A DNA stretch of 35,847 nt from Candidatus Zixiibacteriota bacterium (lineage in GTDB: Bacteria > Zixibacteria > MSB-5A5 > GN15 > FEB-12): contig JBFMGC010000029.1 of NCBI GenBank assembly GCA_040752815.1, positions 1 to 35,847 of the forward strand. The letters are read 5' to 3'. The notes under the pieces were generated by a model. That model was given only the letters and a program-made list of their open reading frames with translations, was not told the DNA's origin and ran no database searches. This document shows, in pieces, positions 3,107 to 28,519 of the stretch. Position 1 is the stretch's first letter, and each line of letters begins with the position of its first letter. The position numbers and the translations under genes were made by a program.

Positions 3107-3142
3107 GTACCTCTAAAACGGCGCGAGCGATGGGGCCGCGCT

Positions 3143-4729: not shown

Positions 4730-4744
4730 TGTTGCCATTCCTTT

Positions 4745-5434
4745 CTATTTAACTTCGCTTTCTTTTCTGATTTCACAGGCTACGCAGGGTTTCATGTAGC
4801 ACATCATATCGTGGAACTGTTCTTTCTCAATGCAGGGCGGCTCCAGGTTGGCGCACCCGCCACAGATCGCCTTAGTGGGATCCGAGAAGGTGCAGCGAAG
4901 CTGGCAGGCCGGGCAGACATAGATGCACCCGCCGCAGAGGCGACAGACGGACGATTTGATGTCGAACGGCGTGCCGACACTGCGGCGATGGCCTCGCGCC
5001 CGGAAACCGATCGCGCCCGCCATCATCTGCTCTTTGCACATCCTCACGCACAGGCCGCACAGGATACAGTCTTCGTACTCCTGGCGGAAACGCTGCTGCC
5101 TTACGCCGTGGGCGGACGCCAGATCCTGGATAGTCTTCGACTGCGGACAGGACGCCAGCAGCAGCTCGATGGTCATCTTTCGCGCCCGGATGACACGCTC
5201 GGAGGCCGTACGGACTTTGAGACCTTCCTGCACCGGATAAGTGCACGAGGTCACCAGGCGTGAATTCGGCTCATCACCCACTTCGACCAGGCAGAGCCGG
5301 CAGGCGCCGTACGGAGTGAGACCGTCCATGTGGCAGAGGGTCGGAATGGGGAAGCCGATGAATTTGGCGGCTTCAAGAATGGTCGTGCCTTTGTCGACCG
5401 TCACCGGAAGGCCGTTGATCTTGAGTGTTATCAT
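4745..5434 (-). CDS. NuoG/HydA N-terminal-like Fe-S electron-transfer subunit (229 aa)
   Basis: Residues 1-75 form a [2Fe-2S] plant-ferredoxin-like domain with Cys34, Cys45, Cys48 and Cys64 (CHMDGLTPYGACRLC, TSC). The middle shows the LLLASCPQSKTIQ helix typical of NuoG/HydA N-termini, but without the His/Cys set that binds their extra [4Fe-4S] cluster. Two ferredoxin-type [4Fe-4S] motifs follow (CILCGLCVRMC and CRLCGGCIYVCPAC), then further Cys pairs near the C-terminus (CGGC, CVAC). No hydrogenase H-cluster or molybdopterin domain follows, so it should act as an electron wire. The ATG at 5434 overlaps the upstream stop as ATGA, with GGGAGG upstream, implying translational coupling. A longer frame reaching 5512 has no support. 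Confidence 0.87.
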   Translation of the reverse strand: MITLKINGLPVTVDKGTTILEAAKFIGFPIPTLCHMDGLTPYGACRLCLVEVGDEPNSRLVTSCTYPVQEGLKVRTASERVIRARKMTIELLLASCPQSKTIQDLASAHGVRQQRFRQEYEDCILCGLCVRMCKEQMMAGAIGFRARGHRRSVGTPFDIKSSVCRLCGGCIYVCPACQLRCTFSDPTKAICGGCANLEPPCIEKEQFHDMMCYMKPCVACEIRKESEVK

Positions 5435-8631: not shown

Positions 8632-8667
8632 GTAGTTATCTCCCTTACTGAAGGCTTGCTTGCTGTG

Positions 8668-9519
8668 TTAGTCAATGGCCACCCCGCCGAGATCGAGCAT
8701 GTGGCCCCGGCAGCCGCGGCGCGAGCAGAGCTGCACGATTCCGCCGCCGCGGACAATCATCGGCACCATCGGGGCGCCGCAATCGCCGCATTTGGCGCCG
8801 CCGATAAGCTGCGCGTGGCAGTGCGGGCAGAAGAAGGTGGCAATCGTATCATGCGGAATCGGATGCAGCGATTCGACATTGTAGCTGCCGTAGAGACTGG
8901 AAAGCACCAGCCAGCCGTGCTTGTTTCCGAATGAAATGGTGACGCGGATGCCGGGGTGACCGTCGATCAGGAACTCCGGGTCCATCAGGTTGTGGTTGCA
9001 GCGCGGGCAGCTGACCTGGACCGGGAAGACTCTCTGGTCGGTGGTTACTTCGATAGTGTCGATACCGGCGCGGGCCTTGTCGAGAATGCCCTTTACTTTT
9101 GAGGTGGTCGTCTTGGGGAAGTAGTGTCCGTCGACCACCACCACCGGCCCAAGCGCACAGGCGCCGAGACAGTTGACAGTCTCAAGCGAGAATTCACGGT
9201 CCGGCGTGGTCTCACCGGCCCTGATCCCTAACTGCCGTTCGAGTTCTTCGGCTACCGCCGGGCCGCCGCGAACATGGCAGGCGGTGCCGAGACAGCAGGA
9301 GACCAGATGCTTGCCGCGCGGTTCGAGACTGAACGCGGTGTAGAAAGTGGCGACACCGTAGACGTCTACCAGTGACCGGCCGGTGCGTTTGGCGACTTCT
9401 TCGAGCGCTTCGCGCGGCAGGTAGCTGTAAACTGCCTGGATTTCTTCGAGAATCGAAATCAGCCCGCCGTGCCCGTTTTGGTGTTTTTCAAGGATGCCAG
9501 AAAGGGTGTCGGAAGTCAT
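8668..9519 (-). CDS. NuoE/HydC-like [2Fe-2S] subunit with C-terminal zinc-ribbon-like extension (283 aa)
   Basis: Residues 1-155 are a thioredoxin-fold [2Fe-2S] subunit of the NuoE/HydC/HndA family. The ligands are Cys76 and Cys81 (CLGTAC) and Cys117 and Cys121 (CLGAC), preceded by the family helix YSYLPREALEEVA and the VYGVATFYTAF motif. Usual family length is about 160 residues. Here another 125 follow, with CPRC (171-174), CPHC, CGDC and CSRRGC pairs that look like two zinc ribbons. It is the first gene of the redox operon and would pass electrons between the NADH-site flavin and the other clusters. GGAAAGG lies 6 nt upstream of the ATG at 9519. The role of the C-terminal extension is unknown; it could serve in assembly or as an extra metal site. 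Confidence 0.88.
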   Translation of the reverse strand: MTSDTLSGILEKHQNGHGGLISILEEIQAVYSYLPREALEEVAKRTGRSLVDVYGVATFYTAFSLEPRGKHLVSCCLGTACHVRGGPAVAEELERQLGIRAGETTPDREFSLETVNCLGACALGPVVVVDGHYFPKTTTSKVKGILDKARAGIDTIEVTTDQRVFPVQVSCPRCNHNLMDPEFLIDGHPGIRVTISFGNKHGWLVLSSLYGSYNVESLHPIPHDTIATFFCPHCHAQLIGGAKCGDCGAPMVPMIVRGGGIVQLCSRRGCRGHMLDLGGVAID

Positions 9520-10377: not shown

Positions 10378-12345
10378 ATGCTGCGCCCACCATTCCTTCA
10401 AACCTTGTTCGCCGCGGCTCTGACCGCGGCCAGTCCGGCCGTCTTTGCGACCGTCATAAACTATCAGGCACAACTGGTGGATATAGGCGGTCAACCGGTT
10501 GCTGACGGCGCTTACCCGGCGACTTTCAGTCTTTACGATGATCCGGTTGGAGGCACCCAGCTTTGGACCGAATCGAAGAGCGTCAGCGTGACTGCCGGCA
10601 TGATGACTACAGAGTTGGGAAACGTGAATCCTATCGGAGTGAATGTCTTTGTGACGGAGAGCGGCGGCATCATTACGCCGTATCTTGAAATCACGTTTAA
10701 CAGCGAGACGTTTACGCCCCGCGTTCGGTTGGGCGCCATTCCGAACGCCTACGTGTCGCAGTCCGTGCGGGGTGATTTCATATCCGGTCCGGGGTACATT
10801 ACGATGACCTCGGCCGATTCAAAGATGGCGGGCTCGTCCCCACAGCAGTCTCGCACCAGTTCCAAGCTTCAATCAAGTGATCTCGTTTTCACTGGATACT
10901 ACGAGTTGGATCCGGGTCGAATTCAGGATCAGTTGACTATGGACAGATCCGGTCTAAGCGGAATTCAGGATCAGATTCAAGACCAGATTCAGGATCAGTT
11001 CACGCTGGACGCTGGTGAGATTTCATTCGCAGTGTACAACTTGGTCAACGAAAAGGTCATGGAAGCAGTGTCGGTCTCCGCCGACAGCGGCTTTCAGTTG
11101 GTGGATGAAATTCAGGATCAGAGGGCGGACTTGAACAGCGATGGGTTAGATTTGATACAGGATCAGCAGGAAGGTGATATCCAGGACCAGTTCACTGCGA
11201 CAGCCGAGACCGTCTCACTCACCGTTACCGATGTCTCTACCGGAACAGTTCAGTTTTCCGCGACTATAGCTGCCGATGAGGGTCTCCAGATTCAAGATCA
11301 GATGCAGGATCAAACGACCGATCTGAGTAGCGGCGAGCTATACATAGACGATCAAATGCAAGATCAGTTTGGCAACATGACCAGTGATGGCCTGACTTTT
11401 GGAAGTATAAGCCTGTCCAAGGCTGCTGGCTCGATGGCCGCAGGCGCGACAGCAATCTATGGTGCTACGGGAATTACACTACCGACAGGTGCTGTGGGCG
11501 GGTATGTGCTTACTTGCGATGGTACTGGCGCCGGTTCCTGGCAGCCCGCCGGTGGCGGAGGAGCGAGCTACTGGACTTTGACCGGTGACGTGATTCGCAC
11601 GGACGGTCAGTATGGAATAGCGCGCTACGGCAGTGCCGTTCAAGGCTCCATGACCTCCACCCAGTTAAACTTGGGTACAAACAGCTATACTGGTAGCCCG
11701 TATGCAACGGTTTTCGGGGGTTACTCCGACACGGCGGCAGGTTACTGCAGCATGGCCGCAGGTGAAATGTGTGCTGCCTGGGCTCCCTACGGAATAGCGC
11801 TGGGATTTCGCGCCAAGGTCCAGCACACAGGTTCATTTGCTTTTGCCGATACGAACTACTTCAATTTCTCGACCTCCAATCACAACGAATTTGCGGCCCG
11901 CGCAGTTGGGGGCGTGAGGTTTGTAACCGGCATAAACCCTGCCAACGGCAGCCCTACTGCGGGCGTCCAGTTGGCCCCCGGCGGTGGATCATGGTCGTCA
12001 CTGAGTGACCAAGGTTGCAAGGAAAACGTCGAGGCTGTTGAGGGAAAAGAAGTGCTGGAGAGGCTGGCGGATCTCGAAATCAGCACCTGGAACTACATTT
12101 CGCAGGACGCATCGGTGCGACATCTGGGGCCTATGGCCCAGGACTTCGCCGAGGCCTTTGGCGTAGGCGAAGACAGCAGGTACATAACGACTATTGATGC
12201 CGATGGCGTCGCCCTGGCAGCAATACAGGAACTTCACCGGCAGCTAAAAGCGCTGGCGAACGAAAAAGACAGTAAGATAGAGCAACTCGAATCCGACATA
12301 GTCGAACTCAAGACCATCATCGAGAAACTGGCCGCCGAGCACTGA
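10378..12345 (+). CDS. Secreted fibre-like protein with IQDQ repeats, YadA-like head repeats and S74 autoprocessing chaperone (655 aa)
   Basis: A signal peptide ends near VFA at residue 24. Residues 26-125 match the INYQAQLVDIGGQPVADG domain common at the start of bacterial surface proteins. Residues 180-335 hold eleven [IM][QD]DQ tetrapeptides (eight IQDQ, two MQDQ, one IDDQ) in a degenerate repeat of about 15 residues. Residues 445-490 have Ala/Gly/Ser repeats (GGYSDTAAGYCSMAAG, then YGIALGFRA) like trimeric YadA/phage-fibre heads. The C-terminus is a Peptidase_S74 intramolecular chaperone with the Ser543-Lys548 dyad (SDQGCK), followed by a coiled coil (LKALANEKDSKIEQLESD). A trimeric exported fibre that cleaves off its chaperone is expected. 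GGAGAG precedes the ATG. Confidence 0.8.
   Translation: MLRPPFLQTLFAAALTAASPAVFATVINYQAQLVDIGGQPVADGAYPATFSLYDDPVGGTQLWTESKSVSVTAGMMTTELGNVNPIGVNVFVTESGGIITPYLEITFNSETFTPRVRLGAIPNAYVSQSVRGDFISGPGYITMTSADSKMAGSSPQQSRTSSKLQSSDLVFTGYYELDPGRIQDQLTMDRSGLSGIQDQIQDQIQDQFTLDAGEISFAVYNLVNEKVMEAVSVSADSGFQLVDEIQDQRADLNSDGLDLIQDQQEGDIQDQFTATAETVSLTVTDVSTGTVQFSATIAADEGLQIQDQMQDQTTDLSSGELYIDDQMQDQFGNMTSDGLTFGSISLSKAAGSMAAGATAIYGATGITLPTGAVGGYVLTCDGTGAGSWQPAGGGGASYWTLTGDVIRTDGQYGIARYGSAVQGSMTSTQLNLGTNSYTGSPYATVFGGYSDTAAGYCSMAAGEMCAAWAPYGIALGFRAKVQHTGSFAFADTNYFNFSTSNHNEFAARAVGGVRFVTGINPANGSPTAGVQLAPGGGSWSSLSDQGCKENVEAVEGKEVLERLADLEISTWNYISQDASVRHLGPMAQDFAEAFGVGEDSRYITTIDADGVALAAIQELHRQLKALANEKDSKIEQLESDIVELKTIIEKLAAEH
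10920..11373 (+). repeat. Tandem/interspersed IQDQ-coding repeat
   Basis: A 12-nt unit, ATTCAGGATCAG with few changes, recurs inside the fibre gene: at 10921, 10963, 10975, 10987 and 11109 and in more diverged copies to about 11370. Three copies are directly adjacent near 10963-10998. The low synonymous divergence suggests recent expansion or selection on the exact tetrapeptide. Confidence 0.8.
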
Positions 12346-13052: not shown

Positions 13053-14402
13053 CTACTCCTCCGGCTCGCTTCCCTTCAGCTTCTCCCGCAGCGTTTTGCG
13101 GTCGATGCCCAGTATCTCGGCGGCGCGGGTCTTGTTCCCGTCGACACTCGCCAGCACGTTGCGGATATGCTCGCATTCGACTTCGGCCAGCGTGCGGTGG
13201 AGATTGTTCTGACGGGGCAGACTGGTGCGCATGAACGGCGGCAGGTCGGGCGCTTCAACTTCGTCAGAGTCGCTCATAAACAACAGCCGCTGAACTACGT
13301 TTTCCAGTTCGCGCACGTTCCCCGGCCACGGGTAGCTCTTGAGCATGCGTACGGCGTTGTCCGAGAAGCGCACCGGTGGGCGCTCCATCTCGTGGGCGTA
13401 CTGCCGCGCGAAAGCGGTGGCCAGGAGAACAACGTCGTTCTCGCGCTCCCGCAGCGGGGGGACGTTGATAGTGATGACGCTCAGGCGAAAGTAGAGGTCC
13501 TCACGGAACTTCGCTTTTTGCACGAGACCTTCGAGATTCTTATTCGTTGCGGCGAGAATGCGCACGTCAACTGTATGCGGGCGACTGTCGCCCACCATGG
13601 TGATCTCTTTGTCCTGCAGCGCGCGCAGGAGCTTGACCTGCATGGCGGGGCTGGTCTCGCTGATTTCGTCGAGGAACAAAGTGCCGCCGTCGGCCGCCTG
13701 AAAAAAACCGGGACGCGATTTAACCGCACCGGTGAAGGAGCCCTTTACGTGACCGAACAATTCGCTCTCCAGAAGGCCTTCTGGGATTCCGCCGCAGTTG
13801 ACCGGCACGAACGGAAACGACGCCCGGCTGGAACTGTAATGGATAGCGCGCGCGACAAGTTCTTTGCCGGTACCGCTTTCGCCGGTGATTACAACGTTGG
13901 CCAGGGTGGCCGAAGCTTTCTCGATGGCCCGAAACACTTTCTGCATCGCGCTCGACTCGCCCATGAGTGCGTACGGCTCGTGCTGTAGTTTCGCTGACAC
14001 CCTCGTGGCCGAACGGCGTTCGCTTAGTCTCTCCAAAGCACGTGTGACCGCGCCGAAAAGCTCATCGTCGGTGAACGGCTTCTGCAGGTAGTCGCACGCG
14101 CCGAGCTGTACCGCCTTGACGGCTCCGCCTATCGACGGGTAGCCGGTAATCATGATGACTTCGAGGTCGCGGTAGTTCTCGTGCACGTAGCGGACCAGGT
14201 CGAACCCATCCACCTGCGGCATTTTGAAGTCTGTGATGACCAGGTCGAACGGCATCAGGTCCAGAGAGCGGGTCGCCTCGCTGACCGAACGCGCCGTAGC
14301 CACGCGATATCCGCCCGCACTGAGATTGCGTTCCAACACTTCAAGCGTGTCAGGGGCGTCATCGACCAGCAGGATGCGGGCCTTATCGGCATTAGTGGCC
14401 AC
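13053..14402 (-). CDS. Sigma-54-dependent response regulator, NtrC family (449 aa)
   Basis: Residues 8-120 are a receiver domain with acidic pocket Asp14/Asp15, phosphoacceptor Asp58 (ITDFKMP), Thr86 and Lys108 (QKPF). Residues 145-370 are the AAA+ sigma-54 activator domain with Walker A GESGTGKE (174-181), the sigma-54-contact loop GSFTGA (221-226, Ser replacing the common Ala of GAFTGA), and Walker B GGTLFLDE (239-246). A Fis-type helix-turn-helix closes the protein (TRAAEILGIDRKTLREKL). It would activate sigma-54 promoters when phosphorylated by the kinase encoded just upstream, whose end it overlaps by 11 nt. The start is GTG at 14402 with only a weak ribosome binding site, consistent with coupling. 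I saw no convincing -24/-12 sigma-54 site in the window, so its targets are unknown. Confidence 0.93.
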   Translation of the reverse strand: MATNADKARILLVDDAPDTLEVLERNLSAGGYRVATARSVSEATRSLDLMPFDLVITDFKMPQVDGFDLVRYVHENYRDLEVIMITGYPSIGGAVKAVQLGACDYLQKPFTDDELFGAVTRALERLSERRSATRVSAKLQHEPYALMGESSAMQKVFRAIEKASATLANVVITGESGTGKELVARAIHYSSSRASFPFVPVNCGGIPEGLLESELFGHVKGSFTGAVKSRPGFFQAADGGTLFLDEISETSPAMQVKLLRALQDKEITMVGDSRPHTVDVRILAATNKNLEGLVQKAKFREDLYFRLSVITINVPPLRERENDVVLLATAFARQYAHEMERPPVRFSDNAVRMLKSYPWPGNVRELENVVQRLLFMSDSDEVEAPDLPPFMRTSLPRQNNLHRTLAEVECEHIRNVLASVDGNKTRAAEILGIDRKTLREKLKGSEPEE

Positions 14403-16125
14403 GAGTCGAGCTTTCGGCGAGATGTGGAGCGGCTATGGGGAGGCGGATGGAGAAGCGGGTGCCTTCGCCGGGGCGGCTGGTGACATCGATACGGCCGTCG
14501 TGCGACACCACGATTCCGTGCACGACCGACAGCCCCAGGCCGGTCCCCTGATCGACATCCTTGGTGGTAAAGAACGGATGGAAAATGCCGCGGAGCGTTT
14601 TTTCGTCCATGCCGCAGCCGGAGTCTTCGACTACCAAAAGAACCTGGTCGTTTTCGCGGCTGGTCCGAATGGCGAGCCGGCCGCCGTCGGGCATCGCCTG
14701 TACCGAGTTAACTACGAGATTGGTCAGCACCTGAAGCACTTGTGAGCGGTCGGCGGTGATATCGGGCAGGTCGGGATCGAGATTGCACACGAGGTCAATA
14801 CCGGCGGTGACGAAACGGGACTCAAGAAAGAAGAGGCCGTCGCGGATCAGCTCATTCAGGCTGAACGTGACTTTCGTTGGTTTGGCCTCGCGCGCGAATA
14901 CGAGCAGTTCGCGGATCACGCCGCGGGCGTGCATGGCGGCGGCAACAATCTTGTTCAGGTCACGAGTGATCTCCGGCGGAAGGCCGGGCTGTTTGCCCGC
15001 GAGTTGGGCAAACCCCATGATACTCGCCAGCGGTTCGTTCAGTTCGTGAGCGACACCTGCGGCCAGTTGGCCGATTGTGGCGAGACGGTCGGCGTGACGC
15101 AGCTGCTCATGAAGTTTCTGCCGTTCCTCCGTGCTTTCGTGCTGTTGGACAGTGAGCGCCAGTTCCCTGGCGAAGGCGCCCAGCAGGTCGCGTTCCTCGT
15201 GCAAGAAGGGACCGTTGTCCGCGGGCGGCATCTGGTCGGTGTAGCCTACTTCAATCAGGCCAACTTTCGAGTTGTCTATTATGATATCGGCACTCATGCG
15301 CTGCCCGATGCGACCGGCGCTTTTGGATTCATACGTACGGTGGCGCAGCACGATTCGCGCGGCGGCGGAGTCGGCGTGAAGCCAGCCCTGGGGAATAGTC
15401 TCGACCGCGCACTGCAGGATTTCGTCGAGCGGGGTATCATCGCGCGCCGCCAGCCGCATGACGTCGTATAAGCAGGTCAGCTCTTTTACCCGTTCGCGCA
15501 GCGATGTCTGAAGCTGTCTGATATCGAAAGCTATTCCGAAAGTGTGCGCAAACTGTTCGCTGAAATCGATCAACGGGGCGTTAAAGTAGCCGGTGGACTC
15601 GGACTCGAGCTGAAGCAGGCCGAGACGTCGGCGGGCGCCGTCGACAGGAATGATCATCGCCGATCGGCATGTCGCCGTGAAGCAGATACCGTCGGGGCTG
15701 TCGGGCATCCTCGCGAGTCGCTTCCAATCGGGGAACGATTCCAGGTCATCTATGCGCAGGCTGCCGAAGGGTGTGAACCAGGGGAGGTCGGTGTCGACCT
15801 GGGCGTTAAAGACCTTGTTGCAAACTGATTCGAGTGAGTCGCAGCCGGGCGTGGTCCACCGCCTGGATGCCGCCGGATCAGTGGTCTGACTGGCCTGGGC
15901 GGTCCTGCCTTCGGTACGATTTTCCGGGGTGTGGCTGATACAAAGGCGGCAGTCTTTGTCGCGAATGACGATTCGGGCTGAGCAACAACCGAGGGCGCGA
16001 GATATTAGGGCGGCGGATTCGCTGAGAAAAGCGAGCCGGGACGGGCCGGAGTGGGCGAGGTCGAAGAGCTTGTGCGAGTAGTCCCAGATGGACTCGGCGA
16101 GGCGGATTGTATCTGGATCAGCCAT
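14392..16125 (-). CDS. Cytosolic sensor histidine kinase with two GAF-type modules (577 aa)
   Basis: Residues 20-200 form a GAF-like domain. Residues 205-330 form a second module (VKELTCLYDVMRLA, IPQGWLHA, MSADIIIDN, GPFLHEERDLL) clearly homologous to the N-terminus of both PEP/pyruvate-binding proteins in this window. The HisKA helix carries the phospho-acceptor His360 in AAGVAHELNEPLASIMGF. The ATPase domain has the N box (TNLVVNSVQAM), G1 (DSGCGMDE) and G2 (GTGLGLSVVHGIV). No membrane segment or signal peptide is seen, so it should sense a cytosolic signal. It pairs with the overlapping sigma-54 regulator. A TTGACA-N17-TATCTG promoter lies about 50 nt upstream; no clear ribosome binding site precedes the ATG at 16125. 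Confidence 0.92.
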   Translation of the reverse strand: MADPDTIRLAESIWDYSHKLFDLAHSGPSRLAFLSESAALISRALGCCSARIVIRDKDCRLCISHTPENRTEGRTAQASQTTDPAASRRWTTPGCDSLESVCNKVFNAQVDTDLPWFTPFGSLRIDDLESFPDWKRLARMPDSPDGICFTATCRSAMIIPVDGARRRLGLLQLESESTGYFNAPLIDFSEQFAHTFGIAFDIRQLQTSLRERVKELTCLYDVMRLAARDDTPLDEILQCAVETIPQGWLHADSAAARIVLRHRTYESKSAGRIGQRMSADIIIDNSKVGLIEVGYTDQMPPADNGPFLHEERDLLGAFARELALTVQQHESTEERQKLHEQLRHADRLATIGQLAAGVAHELNEPLASIMGFAQLAGKQPGLPPEITRDLNKIVAAAMHARGVIRELLVFAREAKPTKVTFSLNELIRDGLFFLESRFVTAGIDLVCNLDPDLPDITADRSQVLQVLTNLVVNSVQAMPDGGRLAIRTSRENDQVLLVVEDSGCGMDEKTLRGIFHPFFTTKDVDQGTGLGLSVVHGIVVSHDGRIDVTSRPGEGTRFSIRLPIAAPHLAESSTRGH

Positions 16126-16307: not shown

Positions 16308-18221
16308 TCAATTGTTAAACTCAAAACACGGCAGAGGCAGCGGATCCAGGGATATGAACAGGTGGTCGATAAGTAAGTTTATGTCCCCAATAGAAAGCGC
16401 GCCGTCACAGGTAACGTCACCGAGTAGACTGTCAGGGAATATCGGCACACCGCTGCCAAATAAATGATCGATCAAATAGGTAACATCACCCATCGAAATG
16501 TCGGCGCTGTTGTTGACGTCGCCACGGGCGATAGAGAGGATGGCCCGATAGGCGTCAACGCGGCCCCAGCCATAAGCACCGTTCGGTACGGCACCGCCCA
16601 GCGGCTTGGCCGATTTGCAGAGGATGTCATACACGTTGTAGTCCGACGATGAATCCGAGGTTGTGTCGCGAGCCAGCAGTTCAGGGTCCCGCGCCAGAAG
16701 GAGCGAGGCTGCGCCCGCAGCCACAGGGCAAGCGGCTGATGTGCCGCCCATACGGCAGTTGTAGTTTTCATTGTTGAGCCCCCATTCGGGTAGCTGACAG
16801 TCCCACGGCCAGGGGTATTTGGGGTCGTATTGTCCGTAGGTTGGATTGTAGCCGTATTGGTACATTTGGTCAATTGTCCATACATCGCCATGCAGACCCG
16901 TGTGCCCGCTCGGCGCCGTCAAGTCAAGAGAGTCCCCGCGCTGGGTATACGGGAGCAGATTTTCAAGAGTATCCACTGACCCTACGGCCATCACGTACGG
17001 TAAATAGGCCGGATAGCCCACCGAATACCCAAGAAGCCCGGCATTGCCGGAGGCGAAGAAAACGGAACAACCCTTACTTCCGCGCCCTTGCACGACCGCG
17101 TTAGACAGAGCTTCATTGAGTACCGAGGCGCCACTGGGTGTGGTTAACCATCCCCAGCTATTAGAGAGAACGTCTGCACCGTGCTGCCACGCCCAGGTTA
17201 TGGCTTCAGCGTAGTCAGCAATAGTACAGCGTACACCCGAAGTGGTATCCGGATAAATCTTTACCGGAAGTACACGGGTGGTTGGGTTCATGCCTATCAC
17301 ACCATCCCAAGTCTCCACCGCCAAGACTGAGTCCGTTGCGTGGGTCGACGCAATAATCCCGGCACAGGCCATCCCATGGGCACTTGAGGTACCGGGAGTA
17401 GGATCTTCGTCGCGCATAGCCCCTTCAATCCCTGTGCAGAAGTCATAACCTGGCAGTATCTTCGATGACGGCAGGTCAAAGACGTGATCCGTCACACCGT
17501 CGTCGAGCACAGCCACTACCACGCTGTCGGTGGGGCCCATAAGACCAGCGAAATCCCAAACCGACCTTTCATTAATCGTGCCAACAACACGCTTGATGTG
17601 GTTTTGTAACACGTAATAGTCATCCCACACCCGATAGGAATAGAGTTCCAGGCGAGGTATGAAGTTCGGCTCGGCCCAGCGGGTCGAAACAAGATCATGA
17701 AAGGCATTGGCTATCTCCAACAAACCTGAACCCGATCCGGGAGTATTTCGAATCAGGAATACGTTGTGCATACCGGGGATTTCCCGGTCGACCACGACAT
17801 GGAATGGCACAACCACCTCATTAATCTGGTCTCCGGTAAAATTGCCGTCAAACGCCACAACAAAACTTTCCCCAATGATGAACGCTGAATCTTGGTCATC
17901 AAGATAACACGGTTCGGCAAGGTAGATTCCTTCTGTCGTTCTGAGTCGAGTCAGCTGCTCTGAGGTCAGAGGCGTGGTTACCTCGAACGCGCTGAAGCCG
18001 TCGAGCACTCTGTCGTTTTGGAGTTTCGTACCGATAGCTGGGAAATCTTCGAGTATGGCCCCGATATCATCCCAGCTAAGTTGGACTTCAAACTTGATGA
18101 CGATCCTTGATGAATCTTCTCTTAATGGTACGACACCGCCTGGGCCATACCAGAACTGTGCGCAGACATCTGCGCTCGTCAGCAAAACAGCTACTAACGC
18201 TTTTGCTCCTGTGATTCTCAT
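16308..18221 (-). CDS. Secreted subtilisin-like (S8) serine protease with C-terminal dockerin (637 aa)
   Basis: The ATG at 18221 is chosen because it starts a signal peptide (MRITGAKALVAVLLTSADVCAQ) and has GGAGGAG just upstream; an earlier Met at 18254 would precede the signal by 11 residues. Residues about 20-200 look like a propeptide. The catalytic triad is Asp240 (VAVLDDGV), His282 (SAHGMACAGI) and Ser495 (GGTSAACPVAAG), with oxyanion Asn in FFASGNAG. The C-terminal 60 residues hold two dockerin half-repeats (GDVNNSADISMGDVTYLIDH, then GDVTCDGALSIGDINLLIDH). It begins 22 nt after the stop of the preceding lipoprotein and ends at a strong terminator. It is the only intact protease of the array. 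Confidence 0.9.
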   Translation of the reverse strand: MRITGAKALVAVLLTSADVCAQFWYGPGGVVPLREDSSRIVIKFEVQLSWDDIGAILEDFPAIGTKLQNDRVLDGFSAFEVTTPLTSEQLTRLRTTEGIYLAEPCYLDDQDSAFIIGESFVVAFDGNFTGDQINEVVVPFHVVVDREIPGMHNVFLIRNTPGSGSGLLEIANAFHDLVSTRWAEPNFIPRLELYSYRVWDDYYVLQNHIKRVVGTINERSVWDFAGLMGPTDSVVVAVLDDGVTDHVFDLPSSKILPGYDFCTGIEGAMRDEDPTPGTSSAHGMACAGIIASTHATDSVLAVETWDGVIGMNPTTRVLPVKIYPDTTSGVRCTIADYAEAITWAWQHGADVLSNSWGWLTTPSGASVLNEALSNAVVQGRGSKGCSVFFASGNAGLLGYSVGYPAYLPYVMAVGSVDTLENLLPYTQRGDSLDLTAPSGHTGLHGDVWTIDQMYQYGYNPTYGQYDPKYPWPWDCQLPEWGLNNENYNCRMGGTSAACPVAAGAASLLLARDPELLARDTTSDSSSDYNVYDILCKSAKPLGGAVPNGAYGWGRVDAYRAILSIARGDVNNSADISMGDVTYLIDHLFGSGVPIFPDSLLGDVTCDGALSIGDINLLIDHLFISLDPLPLPCFEFNN

Positions 18222-18243
18222 AACTCCTCCACCGCTAACTGGG

Positions 18244-19311
18244 TCAACGTGCATTCTGGCAGGTCAGATGGTAGAAACCTGCCCCGATTAAACACTCCAC
18301 AGTAAGTGTATCCTTTTCTCTACAGTCGTAAAGTACCAACCGGTTTAGTCCAGCAAATTCAGTCACAGCCAGCAAACGCCCGTTCGGTATCATGGCAATG
18401 TTATCTCCCAAAATTCCGGTAGGGAAAGGAAGATCACATGTACTCCAGAAGATGAGCGAGTCGATTTGCTTCTCTCCCAGAGAGTACCTCGCGAAAGTGT
18501 AAGCCGGAGGAGGGCCGACCAGGATACTCCCGGGTCCGGTGAAGTAGACGTAGTCGTTGTCAGGCGACACAACAATATCCCCGCATCCAGGTGCGACCAG
18601 GTCTCGAAACACCAAGCTGTCCGCTGCTATGTCGAATACGTCGAATAGCATGTAGCAATCACCGAGATCACGAAACATGAATAGCAAGCGCTCGTCGACG
18701 GAGGGGACTACTCTGAAGATTCGATATTCATCGGGCACGCAAATGTAGTCGACGTTGAACCCTCCCGCCAGATCAAGGCGGTAGATTGAGCGGCAGCGTG
18801 TCGAAGGCCCCGGTGCATAGAATCTCTTGCCGTCCACTGTAAACACACCCATGTCCGTTGCCAGAGTGTCCGAAAACAGGAGCGAGTAATCACATGCCGC
18901 GATGATACGCAGGCTTTCTCCCTGCACGGCAAGGTGTTGGTTATCCGGCGAAACGGCCAGGTGAGAAGAACCCGAATAAGGCAGGTCCGCTGACACATAC
19001 CATTCCGCGGTGTTTACTACTCTGATTCTGTCTGCGTAGTCGATGAATAGCCGTTTCCCATCTGCCGAAGCTTTCAATCCAAAGACGCGACTGCCTTGTA
19101 AGTAGAAAGTATCAAGTTCACCGGTAAGCGTGTGGTAGGCAAGAAACACGGAATCATCCTGATTCTTGCTCCAGTACAGCACATAATCCATTGTCTGGGG
19201 TTCCGGCGGTCTCGGTTCGGTGGGTTTATCCTCGCAACCTGATACCCAAAGCCAAACCAGTCCACCACAACCTAACAGTCCTGATAACAGGTGTCCCTTA
19301 GTGATCCGCAT
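18244..19311 (-). CDS. Beta-propeller-like lipoprotein, copy 3 of 3 (355 aa)
   Basis: The N-terminus MRITKGHLLSGLLGCGG then WVSGC is a short lipoprotein signal with two possible lipidation Cys (15 or 26), followed by a Pro-rich linker. The body is built of repeated beta-strand units (VSADGKRLFI-like, AVSPDNQHLAV, VVSPDNDYVYFTG), typical of YVTN/WD40-like propellers. It is closely similar to the protein at 21704 (shared HTLTGE, LPYSG, CRSIYRLDL, FRDLVAPGCGD) and more distantly to that at 20488. Its start overlaps the truncated protease frame by 40 nt, and its own promoter region appears to have been deleted. It precedes the intact protease by 22 nt. Function is unknown; a surface-anchored partner of the protease is an inference. 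Confidence 0.8.
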   Translation of the reverse strand: MRITKGHLLSGLLGCGGLVWLWVSGCEDKPTEPRPPEPQTMDYVLYWSKNQDDSVFLAYHTLTGELDTFYLQGSRVFGLKASADGKRLFIDYADRIRVVNTAEWYVSADLPYSGSSHLAVSPDNQHLAVQGESLRIIAACDYSLLFSDTLATDMGVFTVDGKRFYAPGPSTRCRSIYRLDLAGGFNVDYICVPDEYRIFRVVPSVDERLLFMFRDLGDCYMLFDVFDIAADSLVFRDLVAPGCGDIVVSPDNDYVYFTGPGSILVGPPPAYTFARYSLGEKQIDSLIFWSTCDLPFPTGILGDNIAMIPNGRLLAVTEFAGLNRLVLYDCREKDTLTVECLIGAGFYHLTCQNAR

Positions 19312-20465
19312 ATGTTAACTCCAAGCCCGTCCCGACCCAGGGTGGCAGCCTTCTCCAAAGCTTCGGTTAGCACATCAAAATAGCTGCCGGCGCCTTGACA
19401 TGTGATGTAGTAGCCCCAGCTATTGGAGAGAACGTCCGCGCCGTAGACGTAAGCATAGGTAATGGCTGTCGCCAGGACGCTTGGTGTTACGCCCTGTGCC
19501 CTGCCGTCATCGTGAAAGATCTTGACCGGCTTTATTGCTGTCGAAGGATTTAGCGAGATAATACCCGACGAACTGGCAAGACCTTCAAGACTGTCTGTCG
19601 TGTGAGACGCCCCGATGATCCCTGCGCAACCCATTCCGTGTGCTACGTAATCTCCAGGCACCGGAACATTGTCATAGTCAGCGAAATCAAAACCAGAGAG
19701 AACTCGCGATGCGGGCAAGTCTTCATGCGAAGTAATTCCGTCATCGACAACGGCGACAGTGATAGTATCATCGCTGAGCCCCGCGAAGTCCCACACCGAC
19801 GCTGAATTGAAGGTTCCGATAACCTTCTTCGTATGGTATTGATAACCACTGTAATAGTCGAAAAGTCGGTACGATTGTGCTTCTATCCAGACGGCAAAGT
19901 CAGGATGCGCCCACCGAGTCTCCGGCAGGTTATAGTAGGCGTTGGCCAGGTCCAGTAGACGATAACCGCTGGAATCAGTATTCTTCAGAACGAATACGTT
20001 GGACATGCCGTCGATTTCATGATCGGTGACGACGCCGAAGAGGGCGTTAATGCTATCGATTTCATTCTGGGTCACATCCTCCTCGTAGGCCGCGCAGAAA
20101 GTCAGGCCCACCAGAAAAGAAGAGTCCGTCTCGTTCAAGTAGTAAGGCTCGACCAGGTAGACTCCGTCAATCGCCTGAACCGAGTCAAGGAAGCCACTAT
20201 AACCCTGTCCCAGCGACAGGGCGCAAATCATGAAACCATCAATGGCATGGTTGTCGGAAATCACGCTGTCGATCCGGCCAATGGCAGACAGGATCGCTTC
20301 TTGTTCATTGGTACCGATTTCTTCGTCGAACTTGAGCGCAATTCTGGCTGAGTCGATGTTGAGGGGGATCGTCTCCCCTCCACCATAATAGTGCTGGCCA
20401 TAACCTGGCCCGGCAGCCGCTAACAAGGCAGCCAGCACTACTGCTTGAGCATTTCTTCGTTTCAT
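19272..20465 (-). pseudogene. Truncated subtilisin-like protease lacking the catalytic Ser (397 aa frame)
   Basis: A signal peptide (MKRRNAQAVVLAALLAAAGPGYG) and propeptide region match the intact protease at 16308. Catalytic Asp241 (VAVVDDGI) and His276 (VAHGMGCAGI) are present. After LEKAATLGRDGLGV the homology stops and the frame runs 13 codons into the 5' end of the next lipoprotein gene, ending in CYQDC. The oxyanion Asn, catalytic Ser and dockerin are therefore missing. GGAGG lies 10 nt before the ATG, and the gene begins 22 nt after the lipoprotein at 20488, exactly as in the intact pair. It is most likely inactive as a protease; a propeptide or inhibitor role cannot be excluded. Confidence 0.8.
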
Positions 20466-22976: not shown

Positions 22977-23432
22977 GTGAGCACATCTGACAAGAAACTC
23001 AAACTCCTCTTCCTCTGCACCGGGAACTCGTGCCGGAGCCAGATGGCCGAAGGGTGGGCCAGGTATCTAAAAGGCGACCAGATCGAGCCGTACTCGGCGG
23101 GCACGGTCGGCCACGGTCTCAATCCGCGAGCAGTCGCGGTCATGCGCGAAGCGGAGGTCGATATTTCCGGCCATCAATCCAAGACTCTGGCCGAATTGCC
23201 CGCGCTCGAGTTTGACTACGTGATCACCGTTTGCGCTGATGCCGACCGCGCCTGTCCGGTGTTTCCGGGGAAGGCGATCAAGATTCATCGGGGGTTCGAT
23301 GACCCGCCAAAACTGGCTAAAGACGCCCGGTCGGAGGAAGAGGCTTTATCCCATTACCGCCGGGTCAGGGATGAAATTCGGGCGTTCGTGGAGACACTGC
23401 CGGAAAGTCTGCCGCGGGCCAAAGCGCGCTAA
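22977..23432 (+). CDS. arsC: Thioredoxin-type arsenate reductase / low-molecular-weight phosphatase (151 aa)
   Basis: The P-loop CTGNSCRSQMAEGW starts at Cys14, giving the LMW-phosphatase signature Cys-x5-Arg (Cys14, Arg20). Cys86 and Cys93 (VCADADRAC) are spaced like the redox Cys82 and Cys89 of Staphylococcus ArsC, and FDDPP near residue 108 supplies the general acid Asp. This set favours thioredoxin-coupled arsenate reductase over a pure phosphatase. The start is GTG with GGAG about 11 nt upstream. No ArsR, ArsB or Acr3 gene is adjacent, so regulation by arsenic cannot be inferred. It is transcribed away from the lipoprotein array. Confidence 0.87.
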   Translation: MSTSDKKLKLLFLCTGNSCRSQMAEGWARYLKGDQIEPYSAGTVGHGLNPRAVAVMREAEVDISGHQSKTLAELPALEFDYVITVCADADRACPVFPGKAIKIHRGFDDPPKLAKDARSEEEALSHYRRVRDEIRAFVETLPESLPRAKAR

Positions 23433-23872: not shown

Positions 23873-25201
23873 ATGAGTAGCCAAACCGCCGGGCACGGCT
23901 CATCGGAAACGGGCAAAGGCCGTCCGGCTTTCAACGCCTTTCATATGGCGCAAACACAGTTCGATCATGTCGCCGACCTGCTGAATCTGGATCCCCCCAC
24001 GCGGGCGCTCCTGCGCGAACCTCTTCGTGAATACAAGTTTTTGCTTCCGATTCGTACCGACGACGGCACAGTGCGGGTGTTCCAGGGGTTTCGCGTGCAG
24101 CACAACGATGCACGCGGCCCGTGCAAGGGGGGAATCAGGTTTCATCCAGCCGAAACGATCGACACGGTCCGCGCCCTGGCTATGTGGATGACCTGGAAAT
24201 GTTCTGTTGTAGATATTCCGCTCGGCGGTGGTAAGGGGGGCGTGATATGCGACCCGCACAATTTAAGTGAGCGCGAGCAAGAAGCGATTTGCCGCGGCTG
24301 GGTGCGGCAGTTGGCGCGCAATGTCGGACCGGTGGCCGATGTGCCGGCGCCTGATGTCATGACCTCCGGCCAGCACATGCTCTGGATGCTGGATGAGTAC
24401 GAGCGGATATTGGGCGGCAAGTTTCCGGGGTTCATTACCGGCAAGCCGGTGGGGATGGGAGGGTCGCTGGGCCGCACCGAGGCGACCGGCTACGGCGTGG
24501 TCTATACGATTCGCGAAGCGCTCAAGCAGCTTGGCCTGCCGCTGGAGAAGACCACCGCATCGGTTCAGGGATTCGGTAATGTGGCCCAGTACGCGATCGA
24601 ACTTTTTCAGCGCCTCGGCGGCAAAGTAGTCTGTGTCTCTTGCTGGGATCAGTCGGACCAGAAGTCGTACTCATTCCTGAAGAAGGACGGGGTCGATCTG
24701 TATGGTCTGCAGAAAATCACCGACCGCTTCGGCGGGATCGACAAAGGAAAGGCCAAGAGCCAGGGTTATACGATAGTCGACGGCGGCGAGTGGATCTCGC
24801 AGGAGGTCGATATCCTCATTCCGGCGGCACTCGAAAATCAGGTGACCGGAGAAAACGCAGAGCGGATCAGCCCTAAAGTGCGTGTTATTGCCGAGGGCGC
24901 CAATGGCCCGACTACTCCGGACGCGGACAAGGTCATCCACCAAAAAGGGATCTTCCTGATTCCGGATTTCCTTGCCAACGCCGGCGGAGTAACGTGCAGC
25001 TACTTCGAACAGGTCCAGAGCAACATGAATTACTACTGGGAAAAGGACGACGTCCTGCAGAAGCTGGATGTCAAGATGACCAACGCCTTCCTGGCGGTCA
25101 GCGAGCTGTCGAAGAAGCGAAGTCTGTACATGCGTGACGCCGCCTACGTGATCGCGATCGATCGCGTCGCGCGGGCCTGCCACGAACGCGGCTGGGTGTG
25201 A
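23873..25201 (+). CDS. gdhA: Glutamate dehydrogenase (Glu/Leu/Phe/Val dehydrogenase family, 442 aa)
   Basis: The enzyme converts glutamate to 2-oxoglutarate and ammonium with NAD(P). The substrate domain shows Lys85 (GPCKGG), Lys109 (MTWK) and the catalytic Lys121 in PLGGGKGG, then APDVMTS. The dinucleotide domain begins at about residue 225 with VQGFGNVAQYAIE. Length is usual for hexameric bacterial enzymes. The ribosome binding site GGGAGATAGGA precedes the ATG. Its cofactor preference cannot be read with confidence. A structured leader or terminator region separates it by 129 nt from the PEP-binding gene downstream on the same strand. It is the only clearly assignable central nitrogen enzyme in the window. 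Confidence 0.95.
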   Translation: MSSQTAGHGSSETGKGRPAFNAFHMAQTQFDHVADLLNLDPPTRALLREPLREYKFLLPIRTDDGTVRVFQGFRVQHNDARGPCKGGIRFHPAETIDTVRALAMWMTWKCSVVDIPLGGGKGGVICDPHNLSEREQEAICRGWVRQLARNVGPVADVPAPDVMTSGQHMLWMLDEYERILGGKFPGFITGKPVGMGGSLGRTEATGYGVVYTIREALKQLGLPLEKTTASVQGFGNVAQYAIELFQRLGGKVVCVSCWDQSDQKSYSFLKKDGVDLYGLQKITDRFGGIDKGKAKSQGYTIVDGGEWISQEVDILIPAALENQVTGENAERISPKVRVIAEGANGPTTPDADKVIHQKGIFLIPDFLANAGGVTCSYFEQVQSNMNYYWEKDDVLQKLDVKMTNAFLAVSELSKKRSLYMRDAAYVIAIDRVARACHERGWV

Positions 25202-25244: not shown

Positions 25245-25309
25245 GGGCCGGGCTGCGTCAGTCGACTTCTTGCTGGCGGGCAAGATGAGGGCTTTCGCCA
25301 ACCCGGCCC
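25245..25309 (+). promoter_or_regulatory. Branched stem region between gdhA and the PEP-binding gene
   Basis: GGGCCGGG (25245-25252) pairs with CCCGGCCC (25302-25309). The enclosed 49 nt contain a smaller CTTGC/GCAAG hairpin near 25268. A T-rich stretch (GTTATTATTGTTT) follows directly. This could be a terminator for gdhA or an attenuator-like leader for the next gene, whose ATG at 25331 has no good ribosome binding site. Confidence 0.4.
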
Positions 25310-25330: not shown

Positions 25331-28300
25331 ATGAGCGAACCGGTGTTGCCCGAACAGAATTCCGACGGTGACCTGCTCGGCCAGTTGCAGAGCCAGGCGA
25401 GGGAGCTCGACTGCTTGTATCGGGTCGAGGAGGCCCTTGGGCGTCTCGAGGAGACGATCGAAGACGTTTGCCCGCGCATAATCGAGGCGATTCCCCCGGG
25501 CTGGCAGCATCCGGAGGCCTGCGTGGCGCGCATCAAGATCGGCGACCAGATCTGGACATCGCCGAATTTCATCGAGACTGCCTGGGGGCTGCACGCCGAG
25601 ATTAACTCCAGCGGCAGGCCGGTAGGGCGGGTGAGCGTCTACTACATCCACCGTACACCCTCGGGCGAAAACGGGCCGTTCCTAAAAGAGGAGGCTCGCC
25701 TGCTGAGGACGATCGCTACTCGAATCGGACAGCGGCTTTCGCACCAGCGGGTGCGCGAGTCAGCGGTCCAGTTCGGGAGGCACGATCCTGAACCGCAGCG
25801 CGAAGAATGGCGGATCGTTCTACAAATGCTGGAGCAGACCGACCGCAGCCTCTACCTCCGGGTGGTGCGCCGAATGCTCAACCATCTCTGCTGGAGCGGC
25901 GTGAAGGACGCGGAGTCACTGCTCGAGGGATTTGCCAAGGACGTAGCCAAGGCCGAGGATGTCCTTCGGGGGGAGTGGAACCAGCCGCATCGCCTGCAGA
26001 CAATCCATTTCAGTTCCGCGCTGGTATCCGAGGTACTTCGTATCGCGGCCGAGAACCTGACAGAAGAGGACGCGCTTCGCCTGGTCCAGAAATGGATTCA
26101 GGAAGACAAACTGTCTTACCTGGTGCAGGTAGTGAATCGCAACCTGTCGCTCTCGGATGTAGCCGATGCCATCCGCAGGTACCATCACCTGGCCGATGAG
26201 GTTGGCGATACGGTTTCGCCGAACAAGCGCGGAATCGAAGTGTCGCTTATCCGGCGGTTGCTCTCCGATCAGCTGCAGTATATCAATGTCGCCAAGAACT
26301 TTATCGAGGTGCGCGACTTCTATCAACTGCTCAGCCGGGTCGTGTATACGTCGAGCAGCCAGGGCAGACTGGGCGGCAAAAGCGCCGGGCTTTATCTGGC
26401 AACTCAGATCCTGAAAAAGAAAGCGGCTCGCAATGAGCTCTTGGCCGACGTGCGCGTGCCGCGCACATGGTACGTAGCGTCCGATTCGCTCATCCACTTC
26501 ATGCATTACAACGACTTCGACGAGGTGGTCGAGCAGAAATACAAACCGCTCAGCCAGGTGCGTTTCGAGTATCCTCATATCGTGCAAACGTTCAAGAACG
26601 CGCACTTCCCCGCGGATATTGTCAATGGCCTCTCGGTGGCGCTCGACGAACTGGGCGAACGTCCGCTTATCGTGCGCAGTTCCAGTTTGCTCGAAGATCG
26701 CATCGGTGCTGCGTTTTCCGGCAAGTACTGCAGTCTCTTTCTGGCCAATCAGGGACCCAAGCGAAAACGGCTGGAGGCACTGCTCGATGCGATCGCCGAG
26801 GTGTACGCCTCGATGTTCGGCCCTGACCCGATGGAGTATCGCGCTGAACGCGGATTGATCGACGTCAACGAAGAAATGGGGATCATGATCCAGGAGGTGG
26901 TCGGAAATCGGGTGGGCAAGTACTTCCTGCCGACTGTCGCCGGGGTGGCGTTCAGCAACAACGAATTCCGGTGGTCGCCGCGAATCGACCGTGAGGACGG
27001 CCTTCTGCGCCTGGTGCCCGGCCTGGGCACGAGAGCGGTGGACCGCCTCAACGATGACTATCCGGTTCTTCTGGCGCCTGGGAATCCGTCGATACGCGTC
27101 ACCACCGATCCCGAAGAGATTGCTCACTATTCGCCGCGGCGACTCGACGTGCTCAATCTCGAAACCAACGCCTTTGAGACTATCGATCTGAGACACTTCC
27201 TCGAGAACGGCGGCGAGGAGCTGCCGGGCATTCACGACATGGTTTCGCTGTACGAGTTCCACCACCTGCGGACCCCGTCGCCCATGCAGACCGAGCTCGG
27301 CCCCGGCGAAGTGGTGGTGACTTTCGACGGTCTGGTGAAGCGCACCGATTTCTGTCGCGAGGTCAAGGCGATTCTGGACACACTTCGCGAAACGCTGGGC
27401 GTGCCGGTGGATATTGAGTTTGCCAGCGACGGCCGTCACTTCTACTTGCTGCAATGCCGACCGCAGAATCTATCCGGCTCGGACGCGCCCGCGGCCATTC
27501 CTCGTAATGCGCCCGCGCATGACATCCTGTTCACGACAGGTAAGCACATCGGCAACGGCCAGGTGCCGAACATCACGCACATCGTTTATGTCGAACCGCA
27601 CCGGTATGCGGCGCTGGAGACGCGCTCGGAGATGCTGGAGGTGGGCCGGGCGGTGGGGTATCTCAACAAGCTTCTGCCCAAGCGGCAGTTCGTGCTGATC
27701 GGTCCCGGGCGCTGGGGCAGCCGGGGAGACATTCGCCTTGGTGTAAGTGTCACCTACGCCGATATCAGCAATGCCGGCTGCCTGATCGAGGTGGCGCGCC
27801 GTCGCGGTTCATACATTCCCGAGTTGTCATTCGGAACGCATTTCTTCCAGGACCTAGTCGAGACGGGAATCAGGTATCTGCCGCTGTATCCCGACGAGGA
27901 AGGGACTATATTCAACGAGCATTTCCTGTTGTACTCGCACAATTCACTGGTCGACCTGGCGCCCGAATTTGCCCAGTTGGGCGACACGGTGCGGGTGATC
28001 GATGTGCCGTCGGCATCGGGAGGCAAGGTGTTGAATATCCTCATGAACGCCGACATGGGTATGGCCATGGGGGTATTCGAGGGTCAGGCCAGCTGGGTTC
28101 GGCCGACCGCCGCCGAGGAACTGGCCGAACCGGTGTCAGGCGAGCGCCATTGGCGCTGGCGAATGCAGATGATCGAGCGGCTGGCGCGGCAGCTCGACGC
28201 TGATAAGTTGGGGGTGGTCAATCTTTACTTGTTGGGCAGCACCAAGAACGCCACCGCCGGGCCGAGCAGCGATGTAGATCTGATCGTGCACTTCCGCGGT

Positions 28301-28519
28301 GAGCCGCAACAGTTAGAGCAGCTAAAATGCTGGTTGGCGGGATGGAGCCAGTGCCTGGCGGAGGCCAATTACATTCGAACGGGCGTGCGATCCGACGGGC
28401 TGCTTGATGTGCGCGTGGTCACCGATGACGACATCGCACGTCAGAATGCGTGGGCGGCGAAGATCAGCGCGCCGAGCGATGCCGCCCGGCCGCTGCCGAT
28501 CAGGCGCAAACGCGAATAG
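25331..28519 (+). CDS. PEP/pyruvate-binding ATP-grasp protein with C-terminal nucleotidyltransferase domain (1062 aa)
   Basis: Over its first 930 residues it is a full-length paralogue of the protein at 229. It has the same GAF-like module (RELDCLYRVEEAL, IPPGWQHP), helical linker, PPDK-type ATP-grasp motifs (GRLGGKSAGLYLA, IVRSSSLLEDRIGAAFSG, LLQCRPQ) and C-terminal block (IGPGRWGSRGD, SFGTHFFQDL). Unlike it, it continues for about 130 residues with a MNT-type nucleotidyltransferase: GSTKNATAGPSSDVDLIV near 968-985 gives the GS-x(n)-SDxDL metal site, and LLDVRVV supplies the third Asp. No phosphohistidine or PEP barrel domain is present. Substrates are unknown; an ATP-dependent regulator that modifies another molecule is possible. 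It converges with the Msr gene, leaving a 5-nt gap. Confidence 0.83.
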   Translation: MSEPVLPEQNSDGDLLGQLQSQARELDCLYRVEEALGRLEETIEDVCPRIIEAIPPGWQHPEACVARIKIGDQIWTSPNFIETAWGLHAEINSSGRPVGRVSVYYIHRTPSGENGPFLKEEARLLRTIATRIGQRLSHQRVRESAVQFGRHDPEPQREEWRIVLQMLEQTDRSLYLRVVRRMLNHLCWSGVKDAESLLEGFAKDVAKAEDVLRGEWNQPHRLQTIHFSSALVSEVLRIAAENLTEEDALRLVQKWIQEDKLSYLVQVVNRNLSLSDVADAIRRYHHLADEVGDTVSPNKRGIEVSLIRRLLSDQLQYINVAKNFIEVRDFYQLLSRVVYTSSSQGRLGGKSAGLYLATQILKKKAARNELLADVRVPRTWYVASDSLIHFMHYNDFDEVVEQKYKPLSQVRFEYPHIVQTFKNAHFPADIVNGLSVALDELGERPLIVRSSSLLEDRIGAAFSGKYCSLFLANQGPKRKRLEALLDAIAEVYASMFGPDPMEYRAERGLIDVNEEMGIMIQEVVGNRVGKYFLPTVAGVAFSNNEFRWSPRIDREDGLLRLVPGLGTRAVDRLNDDYPVLLAPGNPSIRVTTDPEEIAHYSPRRLDVLNLETNAFETIDLRHFLENGGEELPGIHDMVSLYEFHHLRTPSPMQTELGPGEVVVTFDGLVKRTDFCREVKAILDTLRETLGVPVDIEFASDGRHFYLLQCRPQNLSGSDAPAAIPRNAPAHDILFTTGKHIGNGQVPNITHIVYVEPHRYAALETRSEMLEVGRAVGYLNKLLPKRQFVLIGPGRWGSRGDIRLGVSVTYADISNAGCLIEVARRRGSYIPELSFGTHFFQDLVETGIRYLPLYPDEEGTIFNEHFLLYSHNSLVDLAPEFAQLGDTVRVIDVPSASGGKVLNILMNADMGMAMGVFEGQASWVRPTAAEELAEPVSGERHWRWRMQMIERLARQLDADKLGVVNLYLLGSTKNATAGPSSDVDLIVHFRGEPQQLEQLKCWLAGWSQCLAEANYIRTGVRSDGLLDVRVVTDDDIARQNAWAAKISAPSDAARPLPIRRKRE

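Follow-up and report, generated by a model that had tools for sequence, protein, structure and literature searches.

A sensor, ATP-grasp and nucleotidyltransferase fusion protein conserved beside glutamate dehydrogenase: a candidate regulator of nitrogen assimilation

Results

Gene content and domain architecture

The window, i.e. the whole analysed stretch of 35,847 nucleotides from a Candidatus Zixiibacteriota genome (contig JBFMGC010000029.1), contains on its forward strand an ORF with an ATG start (25331-28519) that encodes a protein of 1062 aa, referred to here as P0001 or the fusion. The genes and features considered are listed below, with residues numbered according to P0001.

229-3033, reverse strand: paralogue P0002 (934 aa, 52% identical to P0001), a sensor-PPDK_N-GTHFF core without the nucleotidyltransferase (NTase)
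3143-9519, reverse strand: GltB-like / Fer2-Fer4 / NuoF-GltD / NuoE operon beside P0002 (Pfam; order conserved in three relatives)
13053-14402, reverse strand: response regulator of the sigma-54 type, paired with the histidine kinase at 14392-16125
14392-16125, reverse strand: histidine kinase with a P0001-type sensory domain (matching part about 15085-15513)
23873-25201, forward strand: glutamate dehydrogenase (GDH) of subfamily A, located 129 bp upstream of the fusion gene; the genome has no other ELFV dehydrogenase
25331-28519, forward strand: fusion protein P0001 (1062 aa), consisting of sensor, helical region, PPDK_N, GTHFF and MNT-type NTase
25361-25765, forward strand: GAF-like sensory domain, residues ~11-145 (AlphaFold2 model; Foldseek match to the GAF-domain fusion 6oei)
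25796-26335, forward strand: all-helical linker region, residues ~156-335 (AlphaFold2 model)
26366-27499, forward strand: PPDK_N ATP-grasp domain, residues 346-723 (Pfam; ATP-site residues conserved in four classes)
27518-28090, forward strand: 'GTHFF' domain, residues ~730-920 (no annotation; confident model; invariant R794, E820 and H837)
28139-28510, forward strand: MNT/Pol-beta-type NTase domain, residues ~937-1060 (Pfam, Foldseek and residue conservation)
28235-28279, forward strand: GSX10DXD active-site motif, G969-D983 (conservation)
28406-28408, forward strand: third catalytic Asp, D1026 (101/101 sequences)

No RNA families were found in the window, and no terminator-like site was detected on the forward strand between the GDH gene and the fusion.

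Searches with Pfam profiles assigned residues 346-723 to PPDK_N (E = 8.7e-54, score 183 against a cut-off of 27 bits) and residues 951-999 to NTP_transf_2 (E = 3.7e-5, 24.5 bits against a curated cut-off of 21). Neither the phosphohistidine domain (PF00391) nor the PEP-binding TIM-barrel domain gave a Pfam match in P0001, in which the NTase forms the C-terminal end. Apart from a trace of MntA, NCBIfam models produced only partial matches to PEP synthases, far under their cut-offs. In the AlphaFold2 model, which was built from 45 aligned sequences and has a mean pLDDT of 83, the ATP-grasp domain matched rifampin phosphotransferase, PEP synthase, HpeI (9goj) and PPDK in Foldseek searches, and the NTase matched minimal nucleotidyltransferases, including MNT antitoxins. 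The active-site motif of the NTase reads G969-S970-X10-D981-V-D983. A sequence-only reading of this DNA had proposed a PPDK-type ATP-grasp protein lacking both the phosphohistidine and the PEP barrel domains, joined to an NTase with an intact GS...SDxDL site and a third Asp; all of this was borne out, with the coordinates and motifs correct, the ATP-site residues intact and D1026 as the third Asp. The sensory domain that it assumed is likewise real, as residues ~15-172 recur in the histidine kinase at 14392-16125 (reverse strand). The paralogue P0002 possesses the sensory domain too, and it indeed stops before the NTase region.

Residue conservation and the GTHFF domain

Within the NTase, G969, S970, S980, D981 and D1026 are conserved in 101 of 101 sequences and D983 in 99, the other two having Asn at this position; such conservation indicates that the motif is not a chance occurrence. 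Loss of an active-site Asp among homologues, which had been named as an observation that would speak against the proposal, is therefore confined to these two substitutions of D983. To the NTase domain alone, membership in NTP_transf_2 can be assigned, by the curated cut-off and by GSX10DXD together with D1026.

Conservation of the core was assessed over 150 sequences of four classes, namely the fusion, the NTase-less, the 584-aa and the response-regulator type. The ATP-site residues K350, R449, E455, D456, E696, Q708 and R710 vary hardly or not at all in any of the four classes, and the same is true of R794, E820 and H837 in the domain that follows PPDK_N, which we named GTHFF after its motif. 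In the fusion class alone, K350 and E820 are each conserved in 84 of 85 sequences. Modelled separately (residues 730-920) with a more diverse alignment, GTHFF reached a pLDDT of 93.3 and a pTM of 0.91. A Foldseek search of this model, restricted to the PDB, returned nothing convincing (best E 0.18, TM <0.33), and the GTHFF profile gave no credible match among PDB sequences. The separate model had no PPDK-family match in this PDB search, and the idea of a hidden swivel domain in residues 730-920 was rejected. The analysis has brought to light a confidently predicted domain with invariant Arg, Glu and His that is unmatched in the PDB.

Distribution of the fusion

Used as the query against GTDB genomes, the NTase domain revealed at least 530 relatives. 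Going by the titles of their records, the best 80 of these belong to Zixibacteria, Acidobacteria, Planctomycetes, Aminicenantes, Eisenbacteria, Krumholzibacteria, Myxococcota, Bacteroidota, Calditrichota, Spirochaetes, Gemmatimonadetes, Latescibacterota and Bacillota. Among those whose ORF is not truncated at the edge of a contig, nearly all share the sensor-helical-PPDK_N-GTHFF-NTase architecture. The exceptions are two broken frames (L062 and L112) and one protein with another sensor (L081). Of 118 genomes sampled across the phylum of the window, 54 contain the fusion, mostly as ORFs of ~1060 aa. The possibility raised earlier, that the fusion is common and already has an assigned function, thus holds in its first part but not in its second: no function is assigned to it in NCBIfam equivalogs, in Pfam descriptions or in the open-access literature searched. 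The fusion is real and conserved, and it appears to be undescribed.

Linkage to glutamate dehydrogenase and other partners

The gene neighbourhoods of the best 80 matches to one query were clustered; the set is based on MAGs, and close relatives are over-represented in it. Three recurrent partners emerged, namely GDH, a ~584-aa PPDK_N-GTHFF gene and a metallophosphoesterase, and there were no recurrent biosynthetic genes around these 80 loci. In 41 of the 49 loci with at least 3.5 kb of upstream sequence, GDH lies directly upstream on the same strand, and in 5 more it is adjacent but divergent.

Is this linkage specific to one type of GDH? Among 61 relatives, 33 carry both the fusion and GDH subfamily A (membership at ≥57% identity), 2 the fusion only, none the GDH only and 26 neither (Fisher p = 3e-15, a value that ignores kinship among the relatives); the two fusion-only genomes are 84-85% complete. 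No association was found with GDH subfamily B in the same 61 relatives (p = 0.44). Approximately 50 positions differ between the fusion-linked and unlinked GDH subfamilies, and none of them could be singled out as a subfamily-specific modification site.

The ~584-aa PPDK_N-GTHFF gene is present in 43 of 57 loci, usually between GDH and the fusion, and in many loci its stop overlaps the start of the fusion by a few bases. It was not found in the window's own genome; the same compact form, GDH and fusion without the 584-aa gene, also occurs in L075, L094, L121 and L130, among others. Downstream of the fusion, a calcineurin-type metallophosphoesterase of ~288 aa is encoded in 46 of 67 loci and is not within the locus sequence in the remaining 21. 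It retains the D.H / GGD / GND / H / GH.H metal motifs, i.e. those of class III PDE (nomenclature according to PMC4320098), but with motif IV being GND, not GNH. No recognisable copy was found in the window's own genome, in a search run without a positive control. L082 illustrates the complete arrangement, with GDH at 798-2084, the 584-aa gene at 2240-3994, the fusion at 3991-7191 and the phosphoesterase at 7177-8043.

Two genomes (G039 and G052) encode the NTase on its own, in a gene of 144-151 aa that overlaps the phosphoesterase gene and lies beside a sensor kinase and a response-regulator-PPDK_N gene, and GDH is not adjacent to it. Hence, the NTase and the phosphoesterase stay paired even where the fusion is split. 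Since GDH is not adjacent to this standalone NTase, the direct target of the NTase may be the PPDK_N protein.

NTase-less forms and the wider PPDK_N-GTHFF family

In a FastTree phylogeny, the NTase-less forms are scattered over at least three distinct positions inside the NTase-bearing group, some of them weakly supported. This scattering suggests that the NTase is ancestral and has been lost repeatedly, in which case P0002 would represent a secondary loss. If the NTase was lost at least three times while the core was kept, then the core must do something without it. In one case (G017), an NTase-less core still adjoins GDH. The order of the operon beside P0002 is kept in L135 and L136, where it is complete, and in L137, where it is cut by the contig end; in one of these three relatives, GDH follows directly.

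The family also includes response-regulator-PPDK_N-GTHFF proteins of ~990 aa, which in 23 of 29 cases have a member of another GDH subfamily, the NADP-specific GdhA (NCBIfam equivalog), encoded no more than 8 kb away. The Parabacteroides distasonis homologue is divergent from gdhA, 195 bp apart, possesses the GRWGS and GTHFF motifs and is annotated as a 'PEP/pyruvate-binding domain-containing protein'. At L081 (Latescibacterota), a MASE1-PAS sensor is joined to PPDK_N-GTHFF-NTase, in a gene that overlaps one for NADP-GDH and precedes that of the phosphoesterase.

Nitrogen regulators in the genome

The genome containing the window, estimated to be 100% complete, gave no match to PII, GlnD or GlnE, and no GlnE was found in 60 relatives. 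With PII, GlnD and GlnE all lacking a match, the fusion system may be the main post-translational nitrogen control of this organism.

Discussion

These data raise a key question: what does a protein of this architecture do beside GDH, a central junction of carbon and nitrogen metabolism? The earlier suggestion of an undescribed regulatory or modifying enzyme holds as a domain reading and as a guess, and as a whole it is supported in part. It did not include the GTHFF domain, the constant GDH neighbour, the coupled 584-aa PPDK_N gene or the metallophosphoesterase, and it is through these elements that a loosely defined 'modifying enzyme' becomes a specific system that can be tested.

The explanation that we tentatively prefer, and consider quite possible if not quite probable, is that the fusion is a sensor-driven regulator of GDH whose NTase nucleotidylylates either GDH or the PPDK_N-GTHFF partner, with the phosphoesterase acting as the eraser. 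According to this scheme, the N-terminal sensor and the PPDK_N-GTHFF core would set the state of the C-terminal minimal nucleotidyltransferase. The core would bind ATP and may hand a phosphoryl group to the invariant His837, which we infer to be the acceptor. The NTase would move a nucleotidyl group, most likely AMP, from ATP onto a residue of GDH or onto a GDH-bound PPDK_N-GTHFF partner, thereby tuning ammonium assimilation or release, and in most relatives the metallophosphoesterase encoded downstream would take the group off again. Overall, this would constitute a reversible switch like that of GlnE/GlnD, assembled from unrelated parts and operating on GDH rather than on glutamine synthetase or PII. 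In its favour speak the upstream position of GDH, the co-occurrence with GDH subfamily A and the single ELFV dehydrogenase of the window's genome, the proximity of response-regulator versions and of the L081 protein to NADP-GDH, the pairing of NTase and phosphoesterase in G039 and G052, the MntA-type motif, the retained metal motifs of the phosphoesterase and the missing matches to PII, GlnD and GlnE. Several observations count against this preferred explanation: the window's own genome lacks a recognisable phosphoesterase and the 584-aa partner, 21 of 67 loci lack the phosphoesterase, at least three apparent losses of the NTase left the core in place, D983 is Asn in 2 of 101 sequences, and the NTase of G039 and G052 has no adjacent GDH. 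In addition, the adjacency of GDH could stem from a shared metabolism and need not imply physical regulation.

In a different division of labour, the NTase would modify the PPDK_N-GTHFF machinery (its own core or the 584-aa protein), and the true effector would be the core, phosphorylating GDH or binding it allosterically by means of ATP and His837. The core is the common denominator beside GDHs, the NTase is dispensable, the standalone NTase adjoins a response-regulator-PPDK_N gene without GDH, and all four classes retain the ATP-site residues and R794/E820/H837 with no or almost no exception. We nevertheless regard this alternative as rather unlikely, given that GTHFF is not the known swivel domain, that no separate swivel protein was found in the genome and that the phosphoesterase, as far as seen, is not paired with NTase-less forms. 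A further alternative is a metabolic pathway in place of a regulator: the ATP-grasp and NTase domains might act in turn to activate a small molecule that derives from glutamate, ammonia or 2-oxoglutarate, with GDH and the phosphoesterase providing other steps. GDH is itself metabolic, and characterised PPDK_N proteins (PEP synthase, rifampin phosphotransferase and HpeHI) mostly act on small molecules; however, the core is joined to sensor, receiver and MASE1-PAS domains and to one shared with a histidine kinase, different GDHs occur as partners of the module, P0002 is paired with a NuoEF-GltBD-like operon, and recurrent biosynthetic genes are missing from the neighbourhood, so that such a pathway appears distinctly improbable. 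Finally, the motif and fold of the NTase match MNT proteins and PADLOC yielded weak matches (PDC-S09 and PDC-S10), as would be expected of a part of a HEPN/MNT-type toxin-antitoxin or nucleotide second-messenger system with an incidental GDH linkage. This we consider very improbable: no HEPN domain was detected among the window ORFs scanned, and the architecture is constant, while the constancy of the GDH linkage, which is specific and spans phyla, largely refutes the idea.

Conservation beside the GDH gene across many phyla suggests an undescribed switch of nitrogen assimilation, and no description of a GDH controlled by nucleotidylylation was found in the open-access literature searched. Because the fusion is widespread and at least the lineage of the window lacks PII, GlnD and GlnE, the system may explain how ammonium assimilation is controlled in such lineages. 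The results also provide context and a candidate function for the proteins that gut Bacteroidota encode beside gdhA and that are annotated as 'PEP/pyruvate-binding domain-containing'. A bolder generalisation, which we hold to be doubtful, would make the family a phylum-crossing stand-in for PII/GlnD/GlnE, in which sensor-driven PPDK_N-GTHFF proteins with a new catalytic fold form complexes with GDHs under reversible nucleotidylylation, the NTase being the writer and the GND-type phosphoesterase the eraser, and in which the response-regulator versions act on NADP-GDH in gut Bacteroidota.

Comparison with known systems

The RefSeq protein WP_041525632.1 (Bacteroidota) shares with the fusion the PPDK_N-GTHFF core, including the GRWGS and GTHFF motifs, and a location beside gdhA, but has another N-terminal half, lacks a sensor of the fusion's type and the NTase, and has no assigned function. 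The PPDK_N ATP-grasp fold, including the ATP-site residues K, R, ED, E, Q and R, is shared with PEP synthase, PPDK and rifampin phosphotransferase, whereas the fusion lacks their swivel and PEP/pyruvate or drug-binding domains and possesses GTHFF and the NTase instead. A canonical dikinase (PPDK or PEP synthase) was rejected on the grounds that swivel and PEP domains are absent. A PPDK_N module does not always need a swivel domain attached to it, as the two-component dikinase HpeHI (PMC12167813) shows; its HpeI (9goj) is a fold match of the fusion. HpeI, however, works with HpeH, a separate swivel protein, and no free-standing counterpart was found in the window's genome, where all four PF00391 matches lie in ORFs of 584-952 aa on other contigs; the fusion was accordingly not classified as an HpeHI-like system.

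Regarding the NTase, the closest parallel is MntA of the HEPN-MNT antitoxins, a minimal NTase with GSX10DXD and the third Asp that AMPylates a Tyr of its partner protein (PMC7641770). The fusion differs in that its NTase is the C-terminal domain of a large regulator, with GDH and the phosphoesterase in place of a HEPN partner. With no HEPN family found among the window ORFs scanned, it was not assigned to the HEPN/MNT toxin-antitoxins, and a defence system was rejected since the PADLOC matches are weak and at the superfamily level. GlnE and GlnD consist of other domains and have another target enzyme; the fusion does not belong to their family, as neither GlnE (PF03710) nor GlnD_UR_UTase (PF08335) matched P0001 or the genome. 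In terms of function, by contrast, they would be its analogues, with reversible nucleotidylation controlling nitrogen assimilation in both cases.

Genes flanking the fusion

The gene for glutamate dehydrogenase (GDH; 23873-25201, + strand) stands upstream of the fusion (25331-28519, + strand) and is itself preceded by another gene on the same strand:

22977-23432, + strand: low-molecular-weight protein tyrosine phosphatase-like gene (PF01451)

This gene could encode either an arsenate reductase or a stand-in for the eraser, the proposed remover of the nucleotide added by the nucleotidyltransferase (NTase). The GDH subfamily linked to the fusion carries an insertion at residues ~258-260 with an invariant Trp (W258), which is absent from other GDH subfamilies. 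The insertion directly follows the second Rossmann strand, a position that usually determines the choice of coenzyme. In the gap between GDH and the fusion, an inverted repeat of 11 nt (25245-25309, + strand; 91% complementary, arms 43 nt apart) is followed by a T-rich stretch; folding of this segment was not significantly better than that of shuffled sequences (z -1.3).

In related loci of other genomes, genes encoding a 584-aa PPDK_N-GTHFF protein were found (e.g., L082, 2240-3994; L050, 10019-11773). Since this gene often overlaps the start of the fusion by a few bases, it is probably translationally coupled to it, its product being a heteromeric partner. Within the NTase motif, GSTKN is nearly invariant; L119 has GSTNN and L112 GSTEN in its place.

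Paralogue and the neighbouring operon

229-9519, - strand: operon of NuoE, a NuoF/GltD fusion, Fer2/Fer4 and a GltB-like protein, then the NTase-less paralogue P0002
13053-16125, - strand: histidine kinase with the fusion-type sensory domain, and sigma-54 response regulator

A 655-aa protein with a C-terminal, phage-tail-type Peptidase_S74 intramolecular chaperone domain is encoded at 10378-12345 (+ strand). Two Peptidase_S8 (subtilase-family) genes with an unassigned ORF of 355 aa between them occupy 16308-20465 (- strand), and further unassigned ORFs beyond them reach 22804.

Loci L135 and L136 keep the order of the operon genes and P0002, and L137 shows part of it; in L135 and L136, homologues of the kinase and regulator directly precede the operon. 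Possibly, the operon encodes an NADH-linked glutamate-synthase-like complex with P0002 as its own PPDK_N-GTHFF regulator.
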